Assembly: GCF_900105765.1 (NCBI RefSeq)
Contig: NZ_FNTX01000002.1
Coordinates: 1,426,001 to 1,490,000 of the forward strand
Direction of reading: 5' to 3'
Source of the DNA: Ruania alba
GTDB lineage: Bacteria; Actinomycetota; Actinomycetes; Actinomycetales; Beutenbergiaceae
Length of the DNA stretch: 64,000 nt
A program made the position numbers and the translations under genes. Below the pieces are notes generated by a model that did not search any database, was not told the origin of the DNA, and saw only the letters and a list, made by a program, of their open reading frames with translations. Below are positions 5,810 through 17,470 of the stretch, in pieces (the stretch's first letter is position 1; each line of letters starts with the position of its first letter).

Positions 5810-6865
5810 GTGCCGATCAAGGGTCGATCGCACGCTCCCACCCAGGGAGACGTGGCGCGTCTGGCCGGTGTCACCCAGGGGACCGTGTCTGCTGTCCTGA
5901 ACGGGCGCGCGAGGGCTCATCGGATCCCGGAGGCTACTGAACTGCGGGTCCGGGAGGCGGCGGCCGAGCTCGGCTATGTCGCGAATCCCGCTGCTCGCAG
6001 TTTGCGCGGCAAGCGCAACCGCCTGCTCGGCGTGCACACCTTCGAGTCGGTCTTTCCGCTTGATGAGGGGAACTTCTTCCATGAGTTCCTCCTCGGTATC
6101 GAGAAGCAGGCGGTGGTCGAGGGGTATGACATGGTGCTGTTCACCTCGACTGAGGACGCCACGGGGCGGCGTCGGATCTATCGCGAGGGTGCGAACCGTT
6201 TGAATGTGGCCGATGGCAGTGTTCTGCTCGGTTTTGCGCAGGATGTGAGCGATATCGTCCGCCTCGCTGGTGAGGGGTACCCGTTCGTGCACATCGGCCG
6301 TCGTGAGGTTCCGGGGGCGGAGTTCCGTTGGGTCGGTGCTGACTACCGGGCAGGGACGGCCGCGATCATTGCCCGTCTGGTCCGTCTGGGGCATGAGCGG
6401 ATTGGGTATCTGAGTCCGGACCGGCGCAGTGAGGCGCTGGCTGATCGTGAGGACGGCTACCGCGATGGTTGCAGCGCGGCGGACGTGCCCGCCCTGGTTG
6501 ATCTGCTGGAGGTGGAGCAGATGAGCGCGGAGTGGTTCGACCGCGCTGTTGCTGATGGGGTGACGGCGTTCGTGACGGCGAATGAGGACTACGCCGCGCG
6601 GTTGGCTGAGCTGACCCGAGCTCGCGGGCTGACGATCCCTGAGGACGTGTCGGTGGTGGTGTTGCGTGGTACCGCCGCCGGGCCGCGGCCGGGGGTGTCG
6701 TGGAGCGGGATGGGTATTCCCCGGAACGAGATGGGGCGGGTGGCCACGCGGATGTTGGTGGAGATTCTGCGGGACCCGCACGCGACCCAGGATGAGCACA
6801 TTCTCCTTCCCTGCGCCCCACCGGAGGAGACCACGATGGCCCCAGCCAAAGGAGCAACCGCATGA
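5810..6865 (+). CDS. LacI-family transcription regulator
   Basis: A 351-residue regulator. The N-terminal HTH reads GDVARLAGVTQGTVSAVLNGRA (about residues 13-34), followed by a hinge region ending NPAARSLRGKR. The periplasmic-binding-protein-like sensor domain follows (LLGVHTFES, HERIGYLSP near residue 190). The GTG start has GGAGG seven bases upstream. Its stop overlaps the ATG of the FAD oxidoreductase (ATGA), and a sulfatase follows, so it most likely controls this three-gene operon in response to a sulfated sugar or glycan fragment. That ligand is inferred from context only. Confidence 0.88.
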   Translation: MPIKGRSHAPTQGDVARLAGVTQGTVSAVLNGRARAHRIPEATELRVREAAAELGYVANPAARSLRGKRNRLLGVHTFESVFPLDEGNFFHEFLLGIEKQAVVEGYDMVLFTSTEDATGRRRIYREGANRLNVADGSVLLGFAQDVSDIVRLAGEGYPFVHIGRREVPGAEFRWVGADYRAGTAAIIARLVRLGHERIGYLSPDRRSEALADREDGYRDGCSAADVPALVDLLEVEQMSAEWFDRAVADGVTAFVTANEDYAARLAELTRARGLTIPEDVSVVVLRGTAAGPRPGVSWSGMGIPRNEMGRVATRMLVEILRDPHATQDEHILLPCAPPEETTMAPAKGATA

Positions 6866-8457
6866 ACCAGATCTACGCAGACATCGCCGTCATCGGCGCA
6901 GGGCTGGGCGGAGTAGCAGCAGCCCTGGCTGCGGCCCGGCACGGTCGCACCGTGATCCTGACTGAGGAGACGGAATGGGTGGGCGGTCAGGTCACCTCTC
7001 AGGGGGTGCCGGTCGATGAGCACCGCTGGATCGAGCAGTTCGGGTGCACGGCGAGTTATCGCGCGTTCCGCGACGGTGTGCGGGACTACTACCGCGACCA
7101 CTATCCGCTGACTGCTGCCGCCCGGGCGGACAGATACCTGAACCCCGGCAGCGGGCTGGTGAGCCGGTTGTGTACTGAACCCAGGGTCGCAGTGGCGGTG
7201 CTGGAGGCAATGCTTGCCCCGCATCAGGCGGCAGGCCGTATCGATCTGCGGCTCCGGCACCGGCCCATCGCGGCCACCACCGACGGCGACACTGTCACCA
7301 GTGTCACGGTCGAGGACGCTGACGGTAGCCAGGTCACTATCAGCGCCGACTACGTCCTGGACGCTACCGAGACTGGTGAGCTTCTCCCGCTCACCGGTAC
7401 CGAGTACGTCACCGGCTTCGAGTCCCAGGCCGACACCGGCGAACCCAGCGCGCCGGCCGAGCGGCAGCCGGAGAACATGCAGTCGGTCACCTGGTGCTTC
7501 GCTTTCGACTATGTCGAGGGCGAGGACCACACGATCGACAAGCCGGCTGACTATGACTCCTGGCGCCATTTCCAGCCGCCGTACTGGCCCGGTCCGATGC
7601 TCGAGTTCACCGCACCGCACCCGCGGACGCTGGAACCCATCACCCGGGTGCTGCTGCCGCACCATGACGAACGGCCCGGTGAACCGGCCGCGAGTGGTTC
7701 GATCGACTTGTGGCGTTACCGCCGGATCCTTGCCCGGGCGAACTTCGCCCCTGGCGCTGTGCCGAGTGACATCGTGCTGGTGAACTGGCCGATGGTCGAC
7801 TACGTCAGCGGGCCGTTGTTCGACGCCGGGGGCAACAACGCCGAGCACTTCGAGGGCGCGAAGCAGATGAGTCTGTGCCTGATGTATTGGATGCAGACCG
7901 AGATGCCTACCCCCGATGGCGGGAAGGGGCTGCCGGGTCTGCGGTTGCGCGGGGACGTGTTCGACACCTCCCACGGTCTGGCGAAGTACCCCTACATTCG
8001 CGAGTCTCGCCGCATCGTGGCCGAGTACACGGTGATCGAGCAGGACGTGGCTGCTGAGTCCCGGCCGGGGAAGAGGGCGAAACAGTTCGACGACTCCGTC
8101 GGTATCGGGTGCTACCGGATCGACCTGCACCCCTCCACCGGTGGGGACAACTACATCGATGTCGGATCGTTGCCGTTCCAGATTCCGCTCGGTGCGTTGC
8201 TGCCGGTCCGGGTGCGCAATCTGCTCCCTGCGGCGAAGAACCTCGGCACCACCCACATCACCAACGGCTGCTACCGGCTCCACCCGGTGGAGTGGAACAT
8301 CGGCGAGGCCGCCGGCCTGCTCGCCGCCCGGTGCATCACCGGCGGCACGACCCCGCACCAGGTGCGGGCCGACCGGGCCCAGTTGCGCTCGTTCCAGCAG
8401 GCCCTGACCGATGACGGCGTCGAACTCGCCTGGCCCGACGTCGTCGTCGCCGTCTGA
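6862..8457 (+). CDS. FAD-dependent oxidoreductase, FAD_oxidored family
   Basis: A 531-residue flavoprotein. It opens with a dinucleotide-binding motif (IAVIGAGLGGVAAALAAARHG, GxGxxG at residues 12-17), then EETEWVGGQVTSQGVP, which is characteristic of the FAD_oxidored family. The C-terminal FAD-closing part contains LLPAAKNLGTTHITNGCYRLHP and EWNIGEAAGLLAARC. Members recur next to glycan-degrading enzymes, and most have no proven substrate. No signal peptide is seen, so it acts in the cytoplasm. It is coupled to the LacI gene by a 4-bp overlap, and the sulfatase follows after 29 bp. Oxidation of a sugar or sugar-derived acid is an inference from context. Confidence 0.83.
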   Translation: MNQIYADIAVIGAGLGGVAAALAAARHGRTVILTEETEWVGGQVTSQGVPVDEHRWIEQFGCTASYRAFRDGVRDYYRDHYPLTAAARADRYLNPGSGLVSRLCTEPRVAVAVLEAMLAPHQAAGRIDLRLRHRPIAATTDGDTVTSVTVEDADGSQVTISADYVLDATETGELLPLTGTEYVTGFESQADTGEPSAPAERQPENMQSVTWCFAFDYVEGEDHTIDKPADYDSWRHFQPPYWPGPMLEFTAPHPRTLEPITRVLLPHHDERPGEPAASGSIDLWRYRRILARANFAPGAVPSDIVLVNWPMVDYVSGPLFDAGGNNAEHFEGAKQMSLCLMYWMQTEMPTPDGGKGLPGLRLRGDVFDTSHGLAKYPYIRESRRIVAEYTVIEQDVAAESRPGKRAKQFDDSVGIGCYRIDLHPSTGGDNYIDVGSLPFQIPLGALLPVRVRNLLPAAKNLGTTHITNGCYRLHPVEWNIGEAAGLLAARCITGGTTPHQVRADRAQLRSFQQALTDDGVELAWPDVVVAV

Positions 8458-8486
8458 GACCTACGAAATCGGCAAAGGGAGAGCTG

Positions 8487-9965
8487 TTGATGACTGAGCA
8501 ACCGAACATCCTGGTGCTGATGGTGGACCAGTGGCGTGGTGACTGCCTCAGCGCGGCCGGGCACCCCGTCGTCAAGACGCCGTACCTGGATCGCCTTGCC
8601 GCCCGCGGGACCCGCTTCACCCACGCCTACTCCGCCTCGCCCACCTGCATCCCGGCACGGGCGTCCCTGCACACCGGGATGTCAGCCGCCTCGCACGGGC
8701 GGGTCGGGTACAAGGATCTGGTGCCGTGGAACTACGAGGTCACCCTGGCCGGTGAGCTCACCCGCGCCGGCTACCAGACCCAGGCGGTGGGCAAGATGCA
8801 CGTCTACCCCGAACGCACCCAGTTGGGCTTTCAGAACGTCATCCTGCACAGCCCCACCGGGATCGTGCGCACGGCCCGCCAGCAGGGCAAAGACCCCGGA
8901 CTGGTGGACGACTACCTGCCCTGGCTACGTCAGCAGCTCGGCCGGGACGCCACCTACTTCGACCACGGTGTCGACTCCAACTCCTACGTCGCCCGCCCGT
9001 GGGACAAACCCGAACACACCCACCCCACGAACTTCGTCGCCACCCAAGCGGCTGACTTCCTGCGCCGGCGCGACCCGCGTAAACCATTCTTCCTGTTCGC
9101 CTCCTTCAACGCCCCGCACCCGCCGTATGACCCACCGGAGTGGGCGTTCCAGCAATACCTGAACGCACCCATGCCTGATCCGCCGACCGGGGACTGGCAG
9201 GACTACTACGCCGAGTTCGAGGACCCAGCCAACTCGTCCGCGGGGGTGACCCAGATCGATGAGACGATGCTGCGCCGCGCCCGCGCCGGCTACTACGGGC
9301 ACATCACCCACGTCGACCAGCAGATCTCCTACCTGCTGGCCGAGCTCGACCATTACGGCGTGGCCGAGAACACCTACATCTGCTTCATCTCCGACCACGG
9401 CGAGATGCTCGGCGACCACCACATGTTCCGCAAGGGCTACCCCTACGAAGGATCCGCCCGCATCCCGATGCTCATCTCCGGGCCAGGCATGAAACCCGGC
9501 CACGTCAGCGACGAAGTCGTCGAACTGCGCGACATCATGCCGACCCTGCTCGAGTGTGCCGGGGCCCCGACCCCGGACCAGGTCGAAGGCCACAGCCTGC
9601 GCGACATCACCCGTGGCGGGAGCGAACCCGTGCGCGCGTACCTGCACGGCGAACACCTCATGTTCGGCCAATCACTGCAATGGCTCACCGACACCCACAG
9701 CAAATACGTCTGGATGTCCGCCACAGGGCGCGAACAACTCTTCGATCTCGACCACGACCCGCACGAGACCCACAACCTCGCCACCGACCCGGCGTGGGCC
9801 GACACCCTGACGACCTGGCGAGCACGGCTGATCCAAGAACTGACCGGCCGCGAAGAAGGATTCACCGACGGCCGGCAACTGTTCCCCGGGCGGCCAGTCT
9901 CCCCATGCCTGGCCCACGCCACCGATCCAAGGCCACCCCGTCTGACAGCCTGGTTGTCTCGGTAG
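8487..9965 (+). CDS. Cys-type sulfatase
   Basis: A 492-residue sulfatase. The N-terminal metal block NILVLMVDQWRGD is followed by the active-site signature CIPAR at residues 54-58; Cys54 would be oxidised to formylglycine by a sulfatase-maturating enzyme not encoded in this window. Further family blocks are GYQTQAVGKMHVYP, FASFNAPHPPYDPP and ICFISDHGEMLGDHHMFRKG. The family hydrolyses sulfate esters on sugars, choline or aryl groups. No signal peptide is visible, which suggests a small imported substrate. Ribosome site AAAGGGAG lies ahead of the ATG. It is the last gene of the LacI-oxidoreductase operon; the palindrome TCAGGC/GCCTGA at 10005-10020 may terminate it. Confidence 0.9.
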   Translation: MMTEQPNILVLMVDQWRGDCLSAAGHPVVKTPYLDRLAARGTRFTHAYSASPTCIPARASLHTGMSAASHGRVGYKDLVPWNYEVTLAGELTRAGYQTQAVGKMHVYPERTQLGFQNVILHSPTGIVRTARQQGKDPGLVDDYLPWLRQQLGRDATYFDHGVDSNSYVARPWDKPEHTHPTNFVATQAADFLRRRDPRKPFFLFASFNAPHPPYDPPEWAFQQYLNAPMPDPPTGDWQDYYAEFEDPANSSAGVTQIDETMLRRARAGYYGHITHVDQQISYLLAELDHYGVAENTYICFISDHGEMLGDHHMFRKGYPYEGSARIPMLISGPGMKPGHVSDEVVELRDIMPTLLECAGAPTPDQVEGHSLRDITRGGSEPVRAYLHGEHLMFGQSLQWLTDTHSKYVWMSATGREQLFDLDHDPHETHNLATDPAWADTLTTWRARLIQELTGREEGFTDGRQLFPGRPVSPCLAHATDPRPPRLTAWLSR

Positions 9966-10004
9966 CGACGGCGTGCCAGTTCGCGTTGGAACGCTTCCGG
10001 CGCC

Positions 10005-11063
10005 TCAGGCGGACGCCTGATTGAGGATCGCGGCGACAATGGATGGTAAACCGACCACGGGGTTGCGATCCCCGCGGACGCGCTCAGGTAATTGAATCTG
10101 AAACTTCACAGAATCATGGACCAATTCTTGGAAAGAGGAGAGATCGCTGGAACGCGGAATTCGAATGCGGTCGTCAGCGATGTCGTAGAGCCGTTCAAAT
10201 GTCGTGTCGAAAGGTCGGCGAAGTGCAGTCTGTCCCACCTTGCCTTGGTCGTCAATCTGAAAGTTCCGGTCGCCATAGTCTCGAACACAGCGGATAAGGT
10301 CAAGTCTCAGGCTCTGTGGTAGGAACTCCTGGATAGTCTGGATTAGAGATTCGATGCTGTGACCTTCGCTCGAAGTTTGAAGCCATCGGATACCTAATGA
10401 GAGCAGGTAGAGTTCGCTTTCGACAGATCCGTCCGCCGCCACGCCGGGCTCAACTTGGTACCATCCCTCGATGTGATGTCGGCTCGAACTCGTTGTAGAG
10501 GTCTTGACTTCGACGCCAACGGATCCCAACTGAAAGTCGCGCGAAGAGCGGTCTGAGCCGAGCCAGCACGCCAGCAACGCCTGCGATGGTGGTGCGGTCG
10601 GCGCTCGCATCAGGGCCAGGAGTACGAGTAGTTCGCCTGCCAACCCGGTAAGCGCTGCGTTCTCAGCGGCTGCCTCATCTAGCACGAGGGCGATCAACGG
10701 CTCTGTTCGTCTGAAAGCTCCAGCCATGTTGTGCGTTCGACCATGGTCAAGCAACTCGATTAGTACGGTTGCCGCTGCAGCATCAAAATGATCACCTGCG
10801 GGCAGCCAGAGGCGGTTCGCTGCGAATGTCTCGCCTCTCTCACCACGCCACGTGTCATGCACCAAGCGCTCACGCACATTTTGATCTAGGGCAACCAGTT
10901 GGGGTCCAAGGATGAACAGTTCCAACTCGTTCTGTTGGTTGCGCGCTATCGCGAGCGACTGATCTGGCCCTATCCACTTGATTCGTCGGCGGTGGCGACC
11001 GTTGGCCGGTGTCGCGGAAGTCAGAAGTATGCGCAACGATTCGAACGTCGGTGAGATCGACAC
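10005..11063 (-). CDS. PD-(D/E)XK nuclease-like protein (DUF4420)
   Basis: A 352-residue protein with the PD-(D/E)XK triad in the order expected of DUF4420: Glu144 in GLAGELLVL, Asp176 in SSRDFQLG and Glu185-x-Lys187 in VGVEVKTST. The nuclease core is therefore intact. It is the last gene of the methyltransferase-DUF262-Z1 operon: its GTG lies 5 bp after the Z1 stop, with GGGGAGG inside the Z1 coding end. DUF4420 proteins accompany Z1 proteins in predicted restriction-like systems, where they are the likely DNA-cutting subunit. The gene is visibly lower in GC than the flanking chromosome. Cleavage activity is inferred. Confidence 0.82.
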   Translation of the reverse strand: MSISPTFESLRILLTSATPANGRHRRRIKWIGPDQSLAIARNQQNELELFILGPQLVALDQNVRERLVHDTWRGERGETFAANRLWLPAGDHFDAAAATVLIELLDHGRTHNMAGAFRRTEPLIALVLDEAAAENAALTGLAGELLVLLALMRAPTAPPSQALLACWLGSDRSSRDFQLGSVGVEVKTSTTSSSRHHIEGWYQVEPGVAADGSVESELYLLSLGIRWLQTSSEGHSIESLIQTIQEFLPQSLRLDLIRCVRDYGDRNFQIDDQGKVGQTALRRPFDTTFERLYDIADDRIRIPRSSDLSSFQELVHDSVKFQIQLPERVRGDRNPVVGLPSIVAAILNQASA

Positions 11064-11068
11064 TTGGA

Positions 11069-13894
11069 CTATCCCTCCCCTTTTCGTCGGCTAGCGCTCA
11101 CAGCCTCGATGTGATCTGGGCCGCCGCACGGAATGCTAAGCCCAACCGCCACGGCGGCGCTATCCTCGTCGCGTCCGATGAGCTGGAAAACGATCAGACC
11201 TGGACTGCCCTCGGGACGACTCCCGTCGGAGTTCAGAAGTGGTGGCTCGCCGAGCAGGGTGTAGTCGAGCGCGTCGTCGCCTACATAGCCCGTTTCTGTA
11301 GCTCTTCGAGAACCCCAACTCGCGTCGAGCGAATTTCCCTCGACAGTCCTCATCATTGGACGAATATCCACCTTAAGATGACGACCCAGTTGATCCAGCG
11401 GACCTGAGTCGATGCTTGGCCCAGAGCCGAATCGCAGGGCTACACGGAAGCGTGGCTGGCTAGCTGCCTTCGCGTCGAGATCGATGAGACTCCAGCGTTG
11501 CGGTGGAGTCTCATCAGTAATTAGGCCGCGGACTCGCCTGTCTAGGCATGACGCCCAGAACCGCAGGTAGGCAGCGATGACGTAGGGCGAGAAGTGGCCG
11601 AGATCGACGCAGTCACCTTCGACGAGCGGGGCGCGATATAGCGGAAACACCGGATCGTCCGAACAGATCCCAGCCAGGGTCTCCACCGCTGCCCAGCGCT
11701 GCACCTGCTCAAGCGATCGGCCATGGTCCGTGTAATGAAGTGAGTCGAGAAGATCCGCCGCATCCAAGAGGCCGAGATCCTCGACCGCCACCAGCCCGCG
11801 CCGATCACCTCTGACAGCGCCGTTCTCGTGCGCGTCGGCAAAGAATGAGGCCATGATCTCGAGGTTGCGTCCGTCCGCGCCGGGCGGATTTAGATGCCGC
11901 ACCATGGGGCGCGAGCCCGGTCGCAACTGTCGCGAACTGAGACCGGATACCTTCCCGGTCGCCCGGAAGGACGTTCCTTGGAGGACAGTGAAGTCGGGGA
12001 GAGAGTCGGGCGTCGACTCCATAGCTGCGAGCACTTGGCTACGGAGGGAGTGGTCGGTATCCGCGAACTGTGTGAACAGTGACAATTGATTCGACGAGAG
12101 GAATACGCGGCATAGGTCAACGTAAGATCCACGGAATCCGAACCAGCGCTGCATCTGCATCTGAGTATCAGCCATAGGAGCGGACGAATGTCGAGTAAAC
12201 AAGGTGACAAGCAAGCCCTCCAGCGTCAAGCCTCGGGACATTACGTTGCCAGCTACGAAGATGGTCGAGTGGTTGGGAGGCGACAGCCAGCCCATGTCAG
12301 ACGACACAGGTTCGAAGTTTGGCCTGTCATCTGCGGCAGGATCACTGTTAATAACAGCGATTGCAGTACCGGGAATTATCTCCTCGATAAGCAATTGCTT
12401 GATTCGTTTCCACATAGAGACGCGGCGAAATGTGCTAGAGGTGTCGAGTGACTCATAATGAGCCTGTACTGCAGCGCTCGATGCACGGTAGGATTCGTGC
12501 CAGCTGCTCCATGCGTTCTCGTCTGCGCTGAGGTCTGCAAGGGCGCCCGTTTCGCCCTGACTGCTACCGCCGAGCCACCATTCACGCAAATATCGTGCAA
12601 CCTCGAAGTGCTCGTCCTTTCCAGCCGAAGGGTGGATGAGCATCGAAGTGACCGGAGAGGTGTCTGCGGTGACAGCGTCTCGACTTTCGAACACCTTAGA
12701 TCGAGCCGTCGCAGGGCCAAACCTGTCGCCAGCTCGTTCGAGCCGGATTGCAGCGCCAACGAGGTACGCGCGCACTGCGTCGAGTACTGACTCATCCACC
12801 ACCGGTTCGCTGCTGTGAGGTGGATCGTCTGCATTGTCTATCGACGCGGAATCCGCACTGGACGTCTCTACGCACAGAACGTCACTCAGCGGCCCATAGT
12901 AGACGTCCGCGCCTGTGTACCAACCGGGAAGTCCTTCCGGTACTCGGTACGTGAGAGATCGAGGGGTTGGAGTTCCATGCTCTCCGGGCGTTCGCAGTGC
13001 GGCGACGAAATTTCGCGGAGCCAACGGATTATCTGGGTCTTGAAGAAAATTTGCCTGGGGTGTCGCCGTATAGGCGATGTAGGTGGCAAAGACGTGGTCT
13101 GCGATTGTGTGACCCGGATCGATCCGTTGTTCCCAGAGATCGAGTATTCTGCGAGGGACCTGCTTGAAGACCTCAAGTTCGGGCGAGCTCCATGGGAGCG
13201 CATCGTCGGATATAGATGAATCGTCGGCTTCATCGTCAATCACCAGGAGGTTGACGTCCACGCCGACCGACGCAGCGCTGGGATATACCGTCTCGCGGAG
13301 TGTCCGCCCGAGTCGATGCAGGTGGTCGACCTGCTTCATCGCGACGATAATGAGTGGGCGCCCGCGCTCGAGAGCCCGCTTTACGGAACCGGCGGGAACG
13401 GCGTATGCGCGGTCCGGACGAATCTGGGGTCCGTTAGCGACCTCTCCCGGGAGTGGCAGAAATATTCGGCGTTTCAAGGGGTGAGGCGCTGAATCAAGTT
13501 GAGAATGGATGCGTGCTAGCGTCTGAAGCCATAGTGCTGTGCGCGTCCCTGCTAGCACCACGGCAACATTGACACCATTGTCGAGAGCGCGCGCAAGCAC
13601 GCCGATCATCGACGCAGTTTTTCCCGATTGGACGGCGCCCATGACGGCACCGGTTCGTATCTGTGAATCACCCCACCGGGTGTCCGAAGTGGGGAGAACG
13701 GCCCGATCGCCAATGTATGCAGAGTCGTCAAGGACGACCTCCTGGCTAACGGTGCCCATCGCTGATTCTCTAAGTGCCGCTGCGTACGTCTTTAGCCACC
13801 CGAACTCAGGATGTTGGGCGATCTCGATGGTCTCGTCGCCGAACGGGGCTTCTAATTCCACCATGTGGGCCGCGGAAGGTCGAGGAGGTGACAT
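11069..13894 (-). CDS. Z1-domain P-loop ATPase
   Basis: A 941-residue protein. Walker A is GAVQSGKT (residues 86-93), Walker B LLVIDDEAD (about 216-224), and a helicase-like YTATP motif follows near 275. The C-terminal half holds the Z1 domain: FVAGNVMSRGLTLEG (about 546-560) and the hallmark QMQRWFGFR (580-588), which acts like an arginine-finger motif VI. Z1 proteins resemble superfamily II helicases and occur in predicted restriction systems. The gene overlaps the DUF262 gene upstream. The start at 13894 is one of two candidates; ATG 13864 gives 931 residues, and neither has a clear ribosome site. DNA translocation is inferred. Confidence 0.88.
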   Translation of the reverse strand: MSPPRPSAAHMVELEAPFGDETIEIAQHPEFGWLKTYAAALRESAMGTVSQEVVLDDSAYIGDRAVLPTSDTRWGDSQIRTGAVMGAVQSGKTASMIGVLARALDNGVNVAVVLAGTRTALWLQTLARIHSQLDSAPHPLKRRIFLPLPGEVANGPQIRPDRAYAVPAGSVKRALERGRPLIIVAMKQVDHLHRLGRTLRETVYPSAASVGVDVNLLVIDDEADDSSISDDALPWSSPELEVFKQVPRRILDLWEQRIDPGHTIADHVFATYIAYTATPQANFLQDPDNPLAPRNFVAALRTPGEHGTPTPRSLTYRVPEGLPGWYTGADVYYGPLSDVLCVETSSADSASIDNADDPPHSSEPVVDESVLDAVRAYLVGAAIRLERAGDRFGPATARSKVFESRDAVTADTSPVTSMLIHPSAGKDEHFEVARYLREWWLGGSSQGETGALADLSADENAWSSWHESYRASSAAVQAHYESLDTSSTFRRVSMWKRIKQLLIEEIIPGTAIAVINSDPAADDRPNFEPVSSDMGWLSPPNHSTIFVAGNVMSRGLTLEGLLVTLFTRHSSAPMADTQMQMQRWFGFRGSYVDLCRVFLSSNQLSLFTQFADTDHSLRSQVLAAMESTPDSLPDFTVLQGTSFRATGKVSGLSSRQLRPGSRPMVRHLNPPGADGRNLEIMASFFADAHENGAVRGDRRGLVAVEDLGLLDAADLLDSLHYTDHGRSLEQVQRWAAVETLAGICSDDPVFPLYRAPLVEGDCVDLGHFSPYVIAAYLRFWASCLDRRVRGLITDETPPQRWSLIDLDAKAASQPRFRVALRFGSGPSIDSGPLDQLGRHLKVDIRPMMRTVEGNSLDASWGSRRATETGYVGDDALDYTLLGEPPLLNSDGSRPEGSPGLIVFQLIGRDEDSAAVAVGLSIPCGGPDHIEAVSASRRKGEG

Positions 13895-16104
13895 AGGCCA
13901 GAATATCCGAACTGCTTTCGAATGGAGTTGTCGACCGAGGCGGAATCGATGTTCAGGGTCGTAAGAAACTCGCGTACAACTCCAGCGACGAACTCCCATT
14001 GCTGGCGTGACTGGGTCTTGGGCGGCCTGGTCCAACCCTGCGATGCCTCGCTAATGTCCTCGACGGCGTCTTCTAGTCGATCCTGCAGCGAATCGCCGTG
14101 TGCCACGTGTGCGACCGCCAGTGCGATTAGAGAAGCCACCAGTTGGAGTTCTTGCCAGCGACCGGAGCCGCGCGCGTTTCGGAACCTTGGTGCCCACGTC
14201 TCCGGTGGTACCACCTGATGGGCATCCACGGCCTTGTCGAGCATTACCATCGCTTCGATCACGCGCTGAGTGTCTCTGAGCGGGTCCGCAGGGGCGGCAT
14301 GAATGCGATCAAGAAGCGCTGTGATGTGTCGAGCCGTCGATCGGGATGAGAGCCGGTCGTCCTCCAGCAGAAGGGTGGCAGCTACCCACGAGAGTGCCTT
14401 GGTCCGTTTATAACCTGCCTCAGTGTAGCCGTAGGGTCCCGATGGATCGACAAGTGCGTGTCCGGTAGAACTCAGATCGTGCCACGAACTTGAAAGAAAT
14501 GGGGCGACCTGCTCGATTCCGTCAGCATCGCCACTGGTTGCGAGGATTGCCCTCATGAAGTCGAGGTGGTGGTAAGTGGCGTTGCGAATTTCTTCGGCAT
14601 TTAAATGTTTTCCCTGTTTGTTGTAGAGGCTGAAGACTTCGTGAATCTGACGACTCGTGGCCTCTTCGTACTCGATAACTGGGATTCGGTAGTTCGATAC
14701 GTCTTCGAAAAGGGTGCGGATCTTCTTTTTTCCGCTGCCGATCTGGATTACTATGTTCCGGATTTCTGAGTAGTAACGACCACGCGCTTGCTCAAGTTCG
14801 CCACTCAATGACCGGACCTCACCAGAGCGCAGCGGGAAGGGAAAATAGAGTTCCTTTTCGCGTTTCGCGGTCAGGTTCGTCGGCTCGTTCTTCCGCCACT
14901 GCTTCTTGAACGACGGGTAGTTTGTCATGAAGATCTGTTGGAGTTCATCGACGTCAACGCCCCATTCGCCGGCCTTGTCGGCGACGAGCGAAAGGGCTTT
15001 CGGGTGGGAGGCGGTGAATCGCAAGAGGGATGTAAGGCGCTGTTTGCCGTCTACTATTTCGTAGCGATCACCCTCGTCGGTGTTCCACTTAAGGACAATT
15101 ACAGAGGGAAGCGGGATCCCGCGCAATACCGATTCTACGAGTAATTGTGCATCGGCTGTGGGCCAGACGTCCGCGCGTTGGTACGAAGGATTGAGGTCAA
15201 TCTCGCGGTCAATGGCGTACTGGCGGAACTGCGCAATCGTCCATACATGTGCGCCAGCTTGTATGGGACCGGCAGTCTCGACGTCTTCGCCTTCCTCGAC
15301 GTCACTCCACCACGAGTCCCAATTCCCACTGGCAGTTTCAAGTGTGACTGTCCCCTCAGCCTCGTCATCGAGTTCTTCGAGGAATCGCTCGCGAAGTTCG
15401 CCTGCTCGCTCGAGACGCTCTTGCAGCCTACTGAAGAAGGTCGCAGGGTGTCCCACCTCCGCCGGGGCAAGGCCCAGCATCTCCCCAAGTGACCTATCGA
15501 ACACCTCTGGAGAACTTCCGTCGATCTCGCGTGGAAGGTGCATCCATCCCTGGATGGCGGCAACTGGGCTGCGCCAGGTGCCCGTTGAGATCGAGATTGC
15601 GTCTCGGTCTACGTCGAAGAAGCGCGACGAGTCGACGCTCAGTGGTGTCGCTCCGTCGGCCATGAGGCTCGCGATAGCGTCAATGAGGTTCTGATTCAGT
15701 TCGGTCAGGTCTTCGGCCATGTCTTGCTCCGGGTTGTCGTCCCAACGAGGTGCCGGGTGCAGGTTCTGAAGGTCACGTACAAGAGAGCGTGCTGGACGGC
15801 GACCTTCGTTGAGATGCCACCGGACGGCTCCGTCCACTACGCGGTTGAGTCCCGTCAGCGTGACGGTGTCACCGGATGAGATGCACGTGTCATCCCAGTC
15901 TTCGCCGACCCGTTCCGCTATGAGACGACCGCACTCGCACTTCCCTGGCACGCTGGAGAGGTCGAGTCCGACAAACTGGCCAAGCGCGAGGAATGCGGCC
16001 TTTTTTTCCTTGCTGCCCGGACCGAGAGGTTCAACCACGCGGTTGCCGAGATAGTACATCCGGGCGACTGCGTCCGCTTTCGACCTCGCACTTTCGTACC
16101 TCAT
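13852..16104 (-). CDS. DUF262 (ParB/Srx-fold, GmrS-like) protein with novel N-terminal region
   Basis: A 750-residue protein. The DUF262 module starts near residue 290 and shows SYQRADVW (308-314) and IVDGKQRLTSLLRF (350-363), the NTP-binding and nicking motifs of the ParB/Srx fold in GmrS and related proteins. The 280 residues before it match nothing I recognise; they contain a small Cys cluster (CECGR at 56-60, C74). The C-terminal 250 residues are helical. Start 16104 is preferred because it falls 16 bp after the methyltransferase stop; an upstream start would overlap that gene. It takes the place a GHKL/MORC-type ATPase occupies in some related Z1 operons. Relatives act on modified DNA. 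Confidence 0.85.
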   Translation of the reverse strand: MRYESARSKADAVARMYYLGNRVVEPLGPGSKEKKAAFLALGQFVGLDLSSVPGKCECGRLIAERVGEDWDDTCISSGDTVTLTGLNRVVDGAVRWHLNEGRRPARSLVRDLQNLHPAPRWDDNPEQDMAEDLTELNQNLIDAIASLMADGATPLSVDSSRFFDVDRDAISISTGTWRSPVAAIQGWMHLPREIDGSSPEVFDRSLGEMLGLAPAEVGHPATFFSRLQERLERAGELRERFLEELDDEAEGTVTLETASGNWDSWWSDVEEGEDVETAGPIQAGAHVWTIAQFRQYAIDREIDLNPSYQRADVWPTADAQLLVESVLRGIPLPSVIVLKWNTDEGDRYEIVDGKQRLTSLLRFTASHPKALSLVADKAGEWGVDVDELQQIFMTNYPSFKKQWRKNEPTNLTAKREKELYFPFPLRSGEVRSLSGELEQARGRYYSEIRNIVIQIGSGKKKIRTLFEDVSNYRIPVIEYEEATSRQIHEVFSLYNKQGKHLNAEEIRNATYHHLDFMRAILATSGDADGIEQVAPFLSSSWHDLSSTGHALVDPSGPYGYTEAGYKRTKALSWVAATLLLEDDRLSSRSTARHITALLDRIHAAPADPLRDTQRVIEAMVMLDKAVDAHQVVPPETWAPRFRNARGSGRWQELQLVASLIALAVAHVAHGDSLQDRLEDAVEDISEASQGWTRPPKTQSRQQWEFVAGVVREFLTTLNIDSASVDNSIRKQFGYSGLCHLLDLPRPTWWN

Positions 16105-16120
16105 AGCCACTCGCAAACTC

Positions 16121-17470
16121 TCACGCTGGGACCGCCTCGCGCGTCGGAGCGGACACACTCGCTGGTTCATCAACGATGGTAGCGAGCCCAGGAGCAATTT
16201 TACGAAGTCGTGTGAGATCTCGTTCAATATGCTTACGCAGGACATGTTGTACAACGCCGACGTGGACGCCGTTACCTAATTGCTTATAGCTCTCACTAGC
16301 GGGCTGGTCGCCGAAGTCGAAATTGGGTGGAAAACCTTGGAGAGTTGCAGCTTCGGCGACTGACAATCGTCGTTGCTGGGGGCCAAGGATCGGCGTCTGA
16401 GAGATTGCGACTAGCGCCGGAAGATGGGTCATGCGCTTGGCGCGAATGCCGGACGGGCGTAGTTGCATGGCGCAGTTCCAGAGACTGTCCTCAGTTTGAG
16501 CTTGCCACTCGAATTTTCGCCGAGAGGCAGGGAAGGAGCGTACGTCGTGAGCCTCAATCCAGCGATCGAGTACTGACTGATGCTGAGTGTAGAATTTTGA
16601 ATTCTTGCGGAGGAAGTTCTCCTTCCATCTTGGTGTCTCTCGTGGAAGGTCGAACTGATCTTCGTGCACCCAGGAGTCCACCCAGAACGGAAACCCAGGT
16701 AGCCGTACCTCGTCGAGTGCTCGGCTTGGCGCTGCGGTGCGTAGCCGTGCGGTGATCAGTTCACGGAAATTCTCCCATGCATCAATCCACTGCCGCTCTT
16801 CGCGGGTGAGCTCGCAGCCAGCGATGAACCGGCGAGAATCCACGGGTAGTTCAGTCATGAGATCCCACGGCTCTGTGCGGACCATCTTGTTCACCACGGC
16901 AGGGGCCGGGTCGTCTGCGCTTCGTTCGGGCCAATACGTGGCGGTGATGAAGACTCGCTCACGGATCTGTGGCGATCCGCCTTGTTCGACCGGAAGCAGG
17001 TGCGGGGAGAAGATGGCGGGCCTCGATGAGACGTGATATCCGGCCTCGCGCAAGCACTGCACGATTACGGCCCACTCGTGACGGTGTCGTGGTCCAGCGA
17101 GGTTGCGAACATTCTCCAATAGCACCACGGGTGGCCTCCGCGCCGCAACGATATGCATGATGTTCTCGAACAGAGTTCCTCGCGCCTCGTCCATGCCACG
17201 TTGAGCACCTGATTTGGAGAAGGGCTGGCACGGGAACCCTGCTGTCAGCACGGTGTGTTCGGGCACGTCCACGCCCTGGTCGTTTGCTCGTTTCGTGATG
17301 TCGCCGAGCGGATCGGCGCCATGGTTCCACTCGTACACGCGAGCTGCGCGCGGGTCGATCTCCACTGAGTCGACACAGGTCCCGCCCAACTCGCGGAGGG
17401 CGTAGGCAAACCCGCCGATGCCGGCAAACAGGTCGACGAAGGTGAACTCAGCGTGCTGAGAGGGTGTCAT
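16121..17470 (-). CDS. DNA C5-cytosine methyltransferase
   Basis: A 449-residue enzyme with all main C5-MTase motifs in order: I DLFAGIGGF (residues 13-21), IV GFPCQPFSKSG with catalytic Cys81, VI LLENVRNL (about 117-124), VIII QIRERVF, IX LSVAEAATLQGFP and X YKQLGNGVHVGVV. About 130 residues between VIII and IX form the target-recognition region, so the recognition site cannot be read. It would transfer methyl groups from S-adenosylmethionine to cytosine. ATG 17470 is chosen for its AGGAGA site six bases upstream. As first gene of the operon it probably marks self DNA or generates the mark read by the DUF262 and Z1 partners. Confidence 0.95.
   Translation of the reverse strand: MTPSQHAEFTFVDLFAGIGGFAYALRELGGTCVDSVEIDPRAARVYEWNHGADPLGDITKRANDQGVDVPEHTVLTAGFPCQPFSKSGAQRGMDEARGTLFENIMHIVAARRPPVVLLENVRNLAGPRHRHEWAVIVQCLREAGYHVSSRPAIFSPHLLPVEQGGSPQIRERVFITATYWPERSADDPAPAVVNKMVRTEPWDLMTELPVDSRRFIAGCELTREERQWIDAWENFRELITARLRTAAPSRALDEVRLPGFPFWVDSWVHEDQFDLPRETPRWKENFLRKNSKFYTQHQSVLDRWIEAHDVRSFPASRRKFEWQAQTEDSLWNCAMQLRPSGIRAKRMTHLPALVAISQTPILGPQQRRLSVAEAATLQGFPPNFDFGDQPASESYKQLGNGVHVGVVQHVLRKHIERDLTRLRKIAPGLATIVDEPASVSAPTREAVPA

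Follow-up and report, generated by a model that had tools for sequence, protein, structure and literature searches.

A 64,000-nucleotide stretch of the Ruania alba genome (assembly GCF_900105765.1, contig NZ_FNTX01000002.1, positions 1,426,001-1,490,000; hereafter the window, to whose positions all operon coordinates refer) contains a block of four minus-strand genes at 10005-17470. These encode, in order, a C5 cytosine DNA methyltransferase, a DUF262 protein, a Z1-domain ATPase and a DUF4420 protein, all intact in both the list of open reading frames (ORFs) and the sequence, and each with a Pfam match above the curated cut-off of its family (Table 1). The genes are tightly packed, with a 16-bp gap between methyltransferase and DUF262, a short overlap between DUF262 and Z1 and a 5-bp gap between Z1 and DUF4420. 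The guanine-cytosine content of the block is 56-62% compared to about 65-72% elsewhere in the first 30 kb. An earlier interpretation of these letters alone, made without database searches (the sequence-only reading), had described a compact, low-GC operon of four intact genes in this order, and ORFs, sequence, Pfam and base composition all agree with that description. The motifs it picked out are likewise all found in the window, and at least 95% of the homologues aligned with it share them, based on sets of 65 methyltransferases, 65 DUF262, 57 Z1 and 57 DUF4420 sequences that include the window.

Table 1. Genes of the Ruania alba operon and their sequence features (window positions).
Feature	Position	Strand	Remarks
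C5 cytosine DNA methyltransferase	16121..17470	-	Operon gene 1; ATG 17470, stop 16121; Pfam DNA_methylase 2.9e-66
PCQPF motif, Cys81 counted from ATG 17470	17219..17233	-	Kept in at least 95% of 65 methyltransferases
DUF262 (GmrSD_N, ParB/Srx-type NTPase) protein, 750 residues, long form	13852..16104	-	ATG 16104, stop 13852; Pfam 2.2e-25
N-terminal domain, ~126 residues, mark of the long DUF262 form	15721..16098	-	No family found by Pfam
DGKQR nucleotide-pocket motif	15037..15051	-	Present in 67/67 DUF262 sequences, window included
Z1-domain SF2-like ATPase	11069..13864	-	ATG 13864 or 13894, stop 11069; Pfam Z1 1.8e-32
Walker A, GAVQSGKT	13616..13639	-	GxxQSGKT kept in at least 95% of 57 Z1; second and third letters vary
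Walker B / motif II, DDEADD	13220..13237	-	Kept in at least 95% of 57 Z1
Z1 signature, DTQMQMQRWFG	12137..12169	-	Kept in at least 95% of 57 Z1
DUF4420 PD-(D/E)XK protein	10005..11063	-	GTG 11063, stop 10005; Pfam 1.4e-17
E144 of DUF4420	10632-10634	-	Kept in at least 95% of 57 DUF4420
D176 of DUF4420	10536-10538	-	Kept in at least 95% of 57; 38/38 in alignment A3
ExK (E185, K187) of the PD-(D/E)XK site	10503..10511	-	Kept in at least 95% of 57 DUF4420

The same four genes recur together in other genomes. Using an alignment of four DUF262 sequences (A1), we scanned one genome per species (84,980 species) through two short peptide patterns, a procedure that relatives without those patterns escape, and obtained 65 DUF262 loci from Actinomycetota (n = 49) and Pseudomonadota (n = 16), some of them from metagenome bins. 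A Z1 gene lies downstream on the same strand in 59 of the 65, within 250 bases in all of these except the broken locus L083 (58 loci); among the six loci without Z1, two (L065 and L082) reach a contig end and four carry Druantia genes. DUF4420 follows Z1 in 56 of 59 loci, 55 of them recognized by tblastn and one (L052) by a weaker blastp match at 24% identity, and the other three (L049, L059 and L073) stop at a contig end. C5 methyltransferases were found in 64 of the 65 loci, 63 by tblastn and that of L079 after extending the stretch, with the weak tblastn match in L046 confirmed by Pfam; the sole locus with none is L080, on a 15-kb contig. The place of the methyltransferase is variable: directly upstream on the same strand (n = 40), further upstream on the same strand (n = 3), upstream on the opposite strand (n = 6), downstream on the opposite strand (n = 12), downstream on the same strand (n = 2, including L077, which was so counted through an over-long ORF start and has its methyltransferase upstream) or outside the stretch (n = 2).

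The reverse comparison gave the same picture. Across 396 genomes of the order, 13 (window included) contain a gene matching the window Z1 protein at E 1e-20, and all 13 genes have DUF262 upstream and DUF4420 downstream, with no GHKL ATPase gene in roughly 1.5 kb on either side; this set overlaps the 65 DUF262 loci in species. The sequence-only reading had named a failure of the four genes to recur as what would refute it, and both the 65-locus scan and the reverse comparison find the set recurring.

Carriage by phages and by plasmids was considered and set aside. Phage records yielded 57 matches to the DUF262 protein, with the 10 listed covering 10% of the query around the DUF262 core; in phages such as RB49 (H2-H11), genes annotated as hypothetical match this core over ~76 residues. 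One of 72,556 plasmid records matched at E 1e-40, with 65% of the query covered. The Neorhizobium conjugative plasmid NZ_CP147997.1 carries a copy of the operon (L165, 10267-25398) that is seemingly broken, with a methyltransferase annotated in two pieces and a short Z1 gene, and that lies near TniB and Mu-type transposase genes.

The proposal that DUF262 takes the slot of an ATPase, made in the sequence-only reading, was upheld by a census of Z1 genes, a GHKL profile and gene order. Using the Pfam Z1 family, we identified 18 Z1 genes in 16 of 396 genomes of the phylum. For the 17 outside the window genome, a GHKL gene lies within four ORFs in ten cases, DUF262 in one, neither in six and both in none, with several of the stretches reaching contig ends. 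In seven cases (L106, the first Z1 gene of L107, L114 and L116-L119), GHKL immediately precedes Z1 and has the same orientation; in three, it lies one gene further away, separated by DUF4420 (L115) or by a methyltransferase (L110 and L113). In L118, methyltransferase, GHKL, Z1 and DUF4420 follow the exact order of the window and the methyltransferase scores 398 bits against a profile of the operon methyltransferase; in L119, GHKL and Z1 are followed by a gene weakly matching DUF4420, a further gene and, on the opposite strand, a methyltransferase (612 bits). Conversely, a GHKL profile that recovered all ten of its training proteins on leave-out gave a single match among ORFs of at least 90 residues in 67 DUF262 loci (window included), located outside the operon in L069. 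GHKL and DUF262 were never met within one Z1 operon. In a quick tree of 39 rows, the Z1 genes linked to DUF262 (23 rows, selected from the 57 aligned) group in a single clade with a Shimodaira-Hasegawa-like approximate likelihood ratio (SH-aLRT) support of 100; three rows of other groups sit on long branches. The exchange between GHKL and DUF262 is therefore old and no recent patch.

Two loci of the census contain further genes. L116 (5049-13339) combines Z1 and GHKL with a C5-type methyltransferase and the restriction enzyme NaeI (Pfam 1.8e-117), and Z1-GHKL pairs may thus also serve a classical type II enzyme. In L107, two Z1 genes of one genome flank a protein (9285-11735) that matches trypsin-like, AAA and WD40 families.

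The methyltransferase matches the PADLOC model DruM2 (PDLC00034) at 2e-188, and Cys81 of its PCQPF motif is presumably catalytic, as in the C5 methyltransferase family. For the Z1 protein, the start codon at 13894 yields the K92 numbering of the sequence-only reading, with ATG 13864 also possible; its TAT motif, like the motifs in Table 1, is conserved in at least 95% of the 57 sequences, and its signature fits the DThhQXuRhFG motif described in 2008 (Iyer, Abhiman and Aravind, PMC2292703). The DUF4420 protein retains the elements of a PD-(D/E)XK site, with E144, E185 and K187 each present in 37 of the 38 sequences of alignment A3. Its AlphaFold2 model has a mean predicted local distance difference test (pLDDT) score of 93 and found no useful match by Foldseek, so the fold is assigned from its Pfam match, its conserved motifs and the succession of its helices and strands.

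The DUF262 protein has GmrSD_N as its sole Pfam match. In known systems, DUF262 is a sensor-type NTPase to which a nuclease is joined, and the sequence-only reading had called it the nuclease/NTPase half of GmrSD-like type IV enzymes. For the window operon this needs correction: Pfam detected no DUF1524/HNH nuclease at E up to 0.1 for the DUF262 protein of the window and up to 0.01 for three relatives. Because no such nuclease was detected in DUF262, the DUF4420 protein becomes the likelier nuclease, and filing the operon under type IV is unfit; we rejected that classification. Judged by its sequence, the DUF4420 protein is the likely nuclease of the operon, and the DUF262 protein is best read as an NTP-driven gate rather than a type IV enzyme. 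The nucleotide-pocket motif is DGKQR throughout, and DGQQR, the form reported in GmrS and SspE (PMC4619093, PMC10952713), was found in none of 67 DUF262 sequences (window included). The QR pair, F491 and N495 are invariant in all 39 aligned sequences, and no histidine in the last third of the protein is among the residues invariant in all 39. The AlphaFold2 model (mean pLDDT 88, predicted template modeling score 0.59) has BrxU (7p9k) as its best Foldseek match in the PDB, with E 0.012 and probability 0.95 and a TM score of only 0.16-0.20, which means that the link to GmrSD is drawn chiefly from Pfam and motifs. Separately, L080 (13338-14858) encodes a 506-residue protein that contains the N-terminal domain of long-form DUF262 as a tandem duplicate and for which Pfam gave no match.

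The methyltransferase and DUF262 families also occur beside Druantia genes, which the sequence-only reading had not noticed. In four loci (L039, L041, L058 and L079), they accompany DruF and DruE with no Z1 in the stretch; DruF2 and DruE2 were called by PADLOC in L039 and L058 and assigned by similarity in L041 and L079. No DruG was found among the proteins scanned in these loci, which do not comprise every ORF. The methyltransferase is located beyond DruE in L058 and L079, and the genome containing L039 also has a Z1-type locus (L035). Based on quick trees with some long branches, the four Druantia-linked loci occupy two places in the DUF262 tree separated by well-supported branches, and the methyltransferases of L039 and L041 nest within Z1-linked ones, mostly from Demequina (SH-aLRT 97). 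In four composite loci (L024, L032, L038 and L055), DruF and DruE adjoin the full methyltransferase-DUF262-Z1-DUF4420 set (DruF2 by PADLOC in L024, L032 and L038, the remainder by similarity), and each of the genomes has one DUF262 of this kind at E 1e-30. No second methyltransferase of the family was seen past DruE in L024, L032 or L038; in L055, the contig ends there. DruE is also found close to L086, and L071 has a weak DruE-like match nearby. Further along, a DruK-type PD-(D/E)XK protein follows DruE in L032 (6312-7508, PADLOC 6.9e-149), and ORFs sized like DruK follow DruE in the genomes of L024 and L038.

From these arrangements, the methyltransferase and DUF262 look like a detachable unit. 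A single gate shared by two effector sets is possible, and defence genes cluster for other reasons too. We tentatively suggest, with less than even confidence, that the pair acts as a portable gate between self and non-self in which DUF262, and not the nuclease, reads the site of the methyltransferase and drives either Z1-DUF4420 or DruF-DruE, or both in some genomes. If true, part of Druantia would belong together with Z1-type restriction, each being an output of a common sensing module. The presence of the pair beside Druantia genes also provides a testable idea of how these Druantia systems could distinguish self from non-self.

Correlated divergence within operons was evaluated with partial Mantel tests on the long subclass (n = 24 four-gene operons, window included, L077 excluded) and the short subclass (n = 28, L046 and L077 excluded). 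In the long subclass, methyltransferase and DUF262 co-vary given Z1 (r = 0.61, P = 0.0005, the minimum for 2,000 shuffles). Given DUF262, the methyltransferase correlates with neither Z1 (-0.14) nor DUF4420 (-0.06), compared with plain correlations of 0.28 and 0.38, and DUF4420 co-varies with Z1 (0.68).

We propose, at a probability of roughly 0.57, that the operon is an NTP (nucleoside triphosphate)-powered, restriction-modification-like defence system that marks its own DNA and cuts unmarked DNA. The observations behind this proposal are the genes and their motifs, the fixed gene set, the presence of DUF262 at the GHKL position and the co-variation of methyltransferase and DUF262 in the long subclass. 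The methyltransferase would mark its own site in host DNA with 5-methylcytosine, which would serve as protection, and DUF262 would be the site reader, an NTP-hydrolysing gate checking the state of that site. Where the mark is missing, DUF262 would license the Z1 ATPase, which may translocate or remodel the DNA, and the DUF4420 PD-(D/E)XK protein, which would cut it. Both halves of the scheme have precedents: in SspE, recognition of a mark leads to hydrolysis of GTP (guanosine triphosphate) and licensing of a nuclease (PMC13251355), and CglI joins a C5 methyltransferase, a Z1 ATPase and a separate nuclease whose cleavage requires NTP hydrolysis (PMC4267653). More broadly, a DUF262 protein without a recognizable nuclease at the position of a MORC/MutL-type ATPase suggests that both do the same job, namely providing an NTP-driven licence for a nuclease.

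Several results weigh against this proposal. The short subclass shows the opposite pattern, with a correlation of -0.16 between methyltransferase and DUF262 given Z1 and of 0.62 between methyltransferase and both Z1 and DUF4420 given DUF262; a role of DUF262 as reader is therefore not general. We took the long subclass as the more informative one because the target-recognition stretch of its methyltransferases, delimited by motif positions, is more diverse (median identity 0.38 versus 0.60 for the short subclass; 25 and 29 operons), a choice made after seeing the result. The N-terminal domain of DUF262 was considered as the part matched to the methyltransferase and is unsupported in that role (rho = 0.60 compared to 0.55-0.57 for the rest of the protein in the long subclass). 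At E < 0.001, Foldseek gave no match for the DUF262 or DUF4420 model, and sequence searches for solved relatives gave none for the DUF262 alignment or Z1 (E up to 1) and one for DUF4420 at chance level (E 0.4). The distant DUF4420 protein of L052, which was left out of the 57-sequence conservation set, has no aligned E144, E185 or K187 in alignment A3. Finally, a histidine in the last third of DUF262, H629, is shared by 38 of 39 sequences and may mark an unrecognized catalytic site.

That histidine is also one of two points in favor of an abortive infection system, in which DUF262 would itself be the effector, by nucleotide depletion or as a ParB/Srx-type nuclease, and Z1-DUF4420 would sense DNA; the other is that both NTPase and nuclease activities are reported for ParB/Srx proteins (PMC4619093). 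We regard this as very unlikely, since DUF262 is retained where the other pair is DruF/DruE, a better fit to a gate than to an effector. The nature of the mark offers a more serious alternative. The methylated host sites could be the signal that turns on the DUF262 NTPase, after which the effectors would attack unmarked or wrongly marked DNA. SspE depends on a host mark (PMC9646914, PMC13251355, PMC10952713), BrxU, which also has DUF262 and is the PDB entry that best matches our model, acts on modified cytosine, and a methyltransferase present in 64 of 65 loci suits a signal. The nearest studied Z1 system, CglI, is an ordinary restriction-modification system (PMC4267653), and we consider a signaling role for the mark unlikely, at something over one chance in five.

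The membership of DUF262 in the modification-dependent enzymes GmrSD and BrxU could instead point to a type IV-like system, in which DUF262, Z1 and DUF4420 would target phage DNA with other cytosine modifications, leaving the methyltransferase as a loosely linked passenger or in a side role. Its varying place and strand would fit such loose linkage (immediately upstream and co-oriented in 40 loci, downstream on the opposite strand in 12, elsewhere in 11 and outside the stretch in two). However, the methyltransferase is missing only from L080, DUF1524 was not detected, and within the long subclass the methyltransferase varies together with DUF262. A type IV-like system is improbable on these grounds, and we retain the restriction-modification-like proposal.

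The operon lies among unrelated loci: a sulfatase, an FAD oxidoreductase and a LacI-type regulator are found on one side, and a LigD-type primase-polymerase and an SBF-like transporter on the other, with no DruE or DruF beside the operon. Four of seven other genomes of the genus have the LigD orthologue (85-91% identity, transporter next to it), and in all four the operon is absent from the 18 kb around it. Genome G003 (L151) has the FAD oxidoreductase and sulfatase pair without the operon. The sulfatase (8487-9965) adjoins the operon and is preceded by the FAD oxidoreductase and the LacI-type regulator (5810-9965 for the three). The window genome is sulfatase-rich, with 87 matches to this protein, some being fragments of one gene.

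Finally, we compared the operon to known systems. An association of Z1-type helicases with a PD-(D/E)XK gene, methyltransferases and GHKL ATPases in operons was reported in 2008 (PMC2292703), and a paper of 2017 describes an island where Z1 and DUF4420 accompany an EcoRII-like enzyme and a Dcm-like methylase (PMC5379612). The MORC/paraMORC-Z1 operons of the former share the C5 methyltransferase, the Z1 protein with its DThhQXuRhFG motif and the extra PD-(D/E)XK gene with the window operon, which thus has their trait of Z1, DUF4420-type nuclease and DNA methyltransferase together; they differ in having a GHKL ATPase where the window has DUF262, a word that occurs zero times in that text. MZA shares two families, with MzaC being a Z1 and MzaD a PD-(D/E)XK protein in NCBIfam. 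Membership in MZA was rejected on the NCBIfam cut-offs, as the window Z1 is MzaC-like at 114.4 bits versus 1500 and its DUF4420 MzaD-like at 26.2 bits versus 420. AIPR had no match in 67 loci (window included) with a profile trained on two AIPR proteins, a weak test. CglI/NgoAVII likewise has a C5 methyltransferase, a Z1 ATPase (N-protein) and a separate nuclease; as a control, the C. glutamicum genome matches PF10593. That system is a three-gene set without DUF262 whose nuclease is of the PLD and B3 type (PMC4267653), whereas the window operon has four genes, the last matching DUF4420 only. With GmrSD, BrxU and SspE, the window protein shares a DUF262 domain containing the QR pair, DGxQR and FxxxN; unlike them, it has no detected DUF1524, carries DGKQR rather than DGQQR and belongs to a four-gene set with its own methyltransferase. 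DUF1524 is not adjacent either, as the operon neighbors match other Pfam families.

Druantia types II and IV have the methyltransferase family DruM2 in common with the operon (PMC8565338). Of the type II set (DruM, DruF, DruG and DruE), only the methyltransferase is represented among the four operon genes, and canonical type II is described as found only in Proteobacteria (PMC8565338). In the open-access literature to which our search was directed, DUF262 was not found together with Z1 or DUF4420, no link between DUF262 and Druantia was found in the text available (one review mentions both unconnected), and the terms DUF4420 and 'Z1 domain' are absent by word count from two recent surveys of related systems. 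Operons of Z1, DUF4420 and methyltransferase with a GHKL ATPase are thus already known, and the variant with DUF262 at the GHKL position appears new in that literature. Overall, the sequence-only reading gives way in treating DUF262 as the nuclease/NTPase half of GmrSD; what stands is the four-gene set itself, which is real and recurs, with DUF262 at the GHKL/MORC position.

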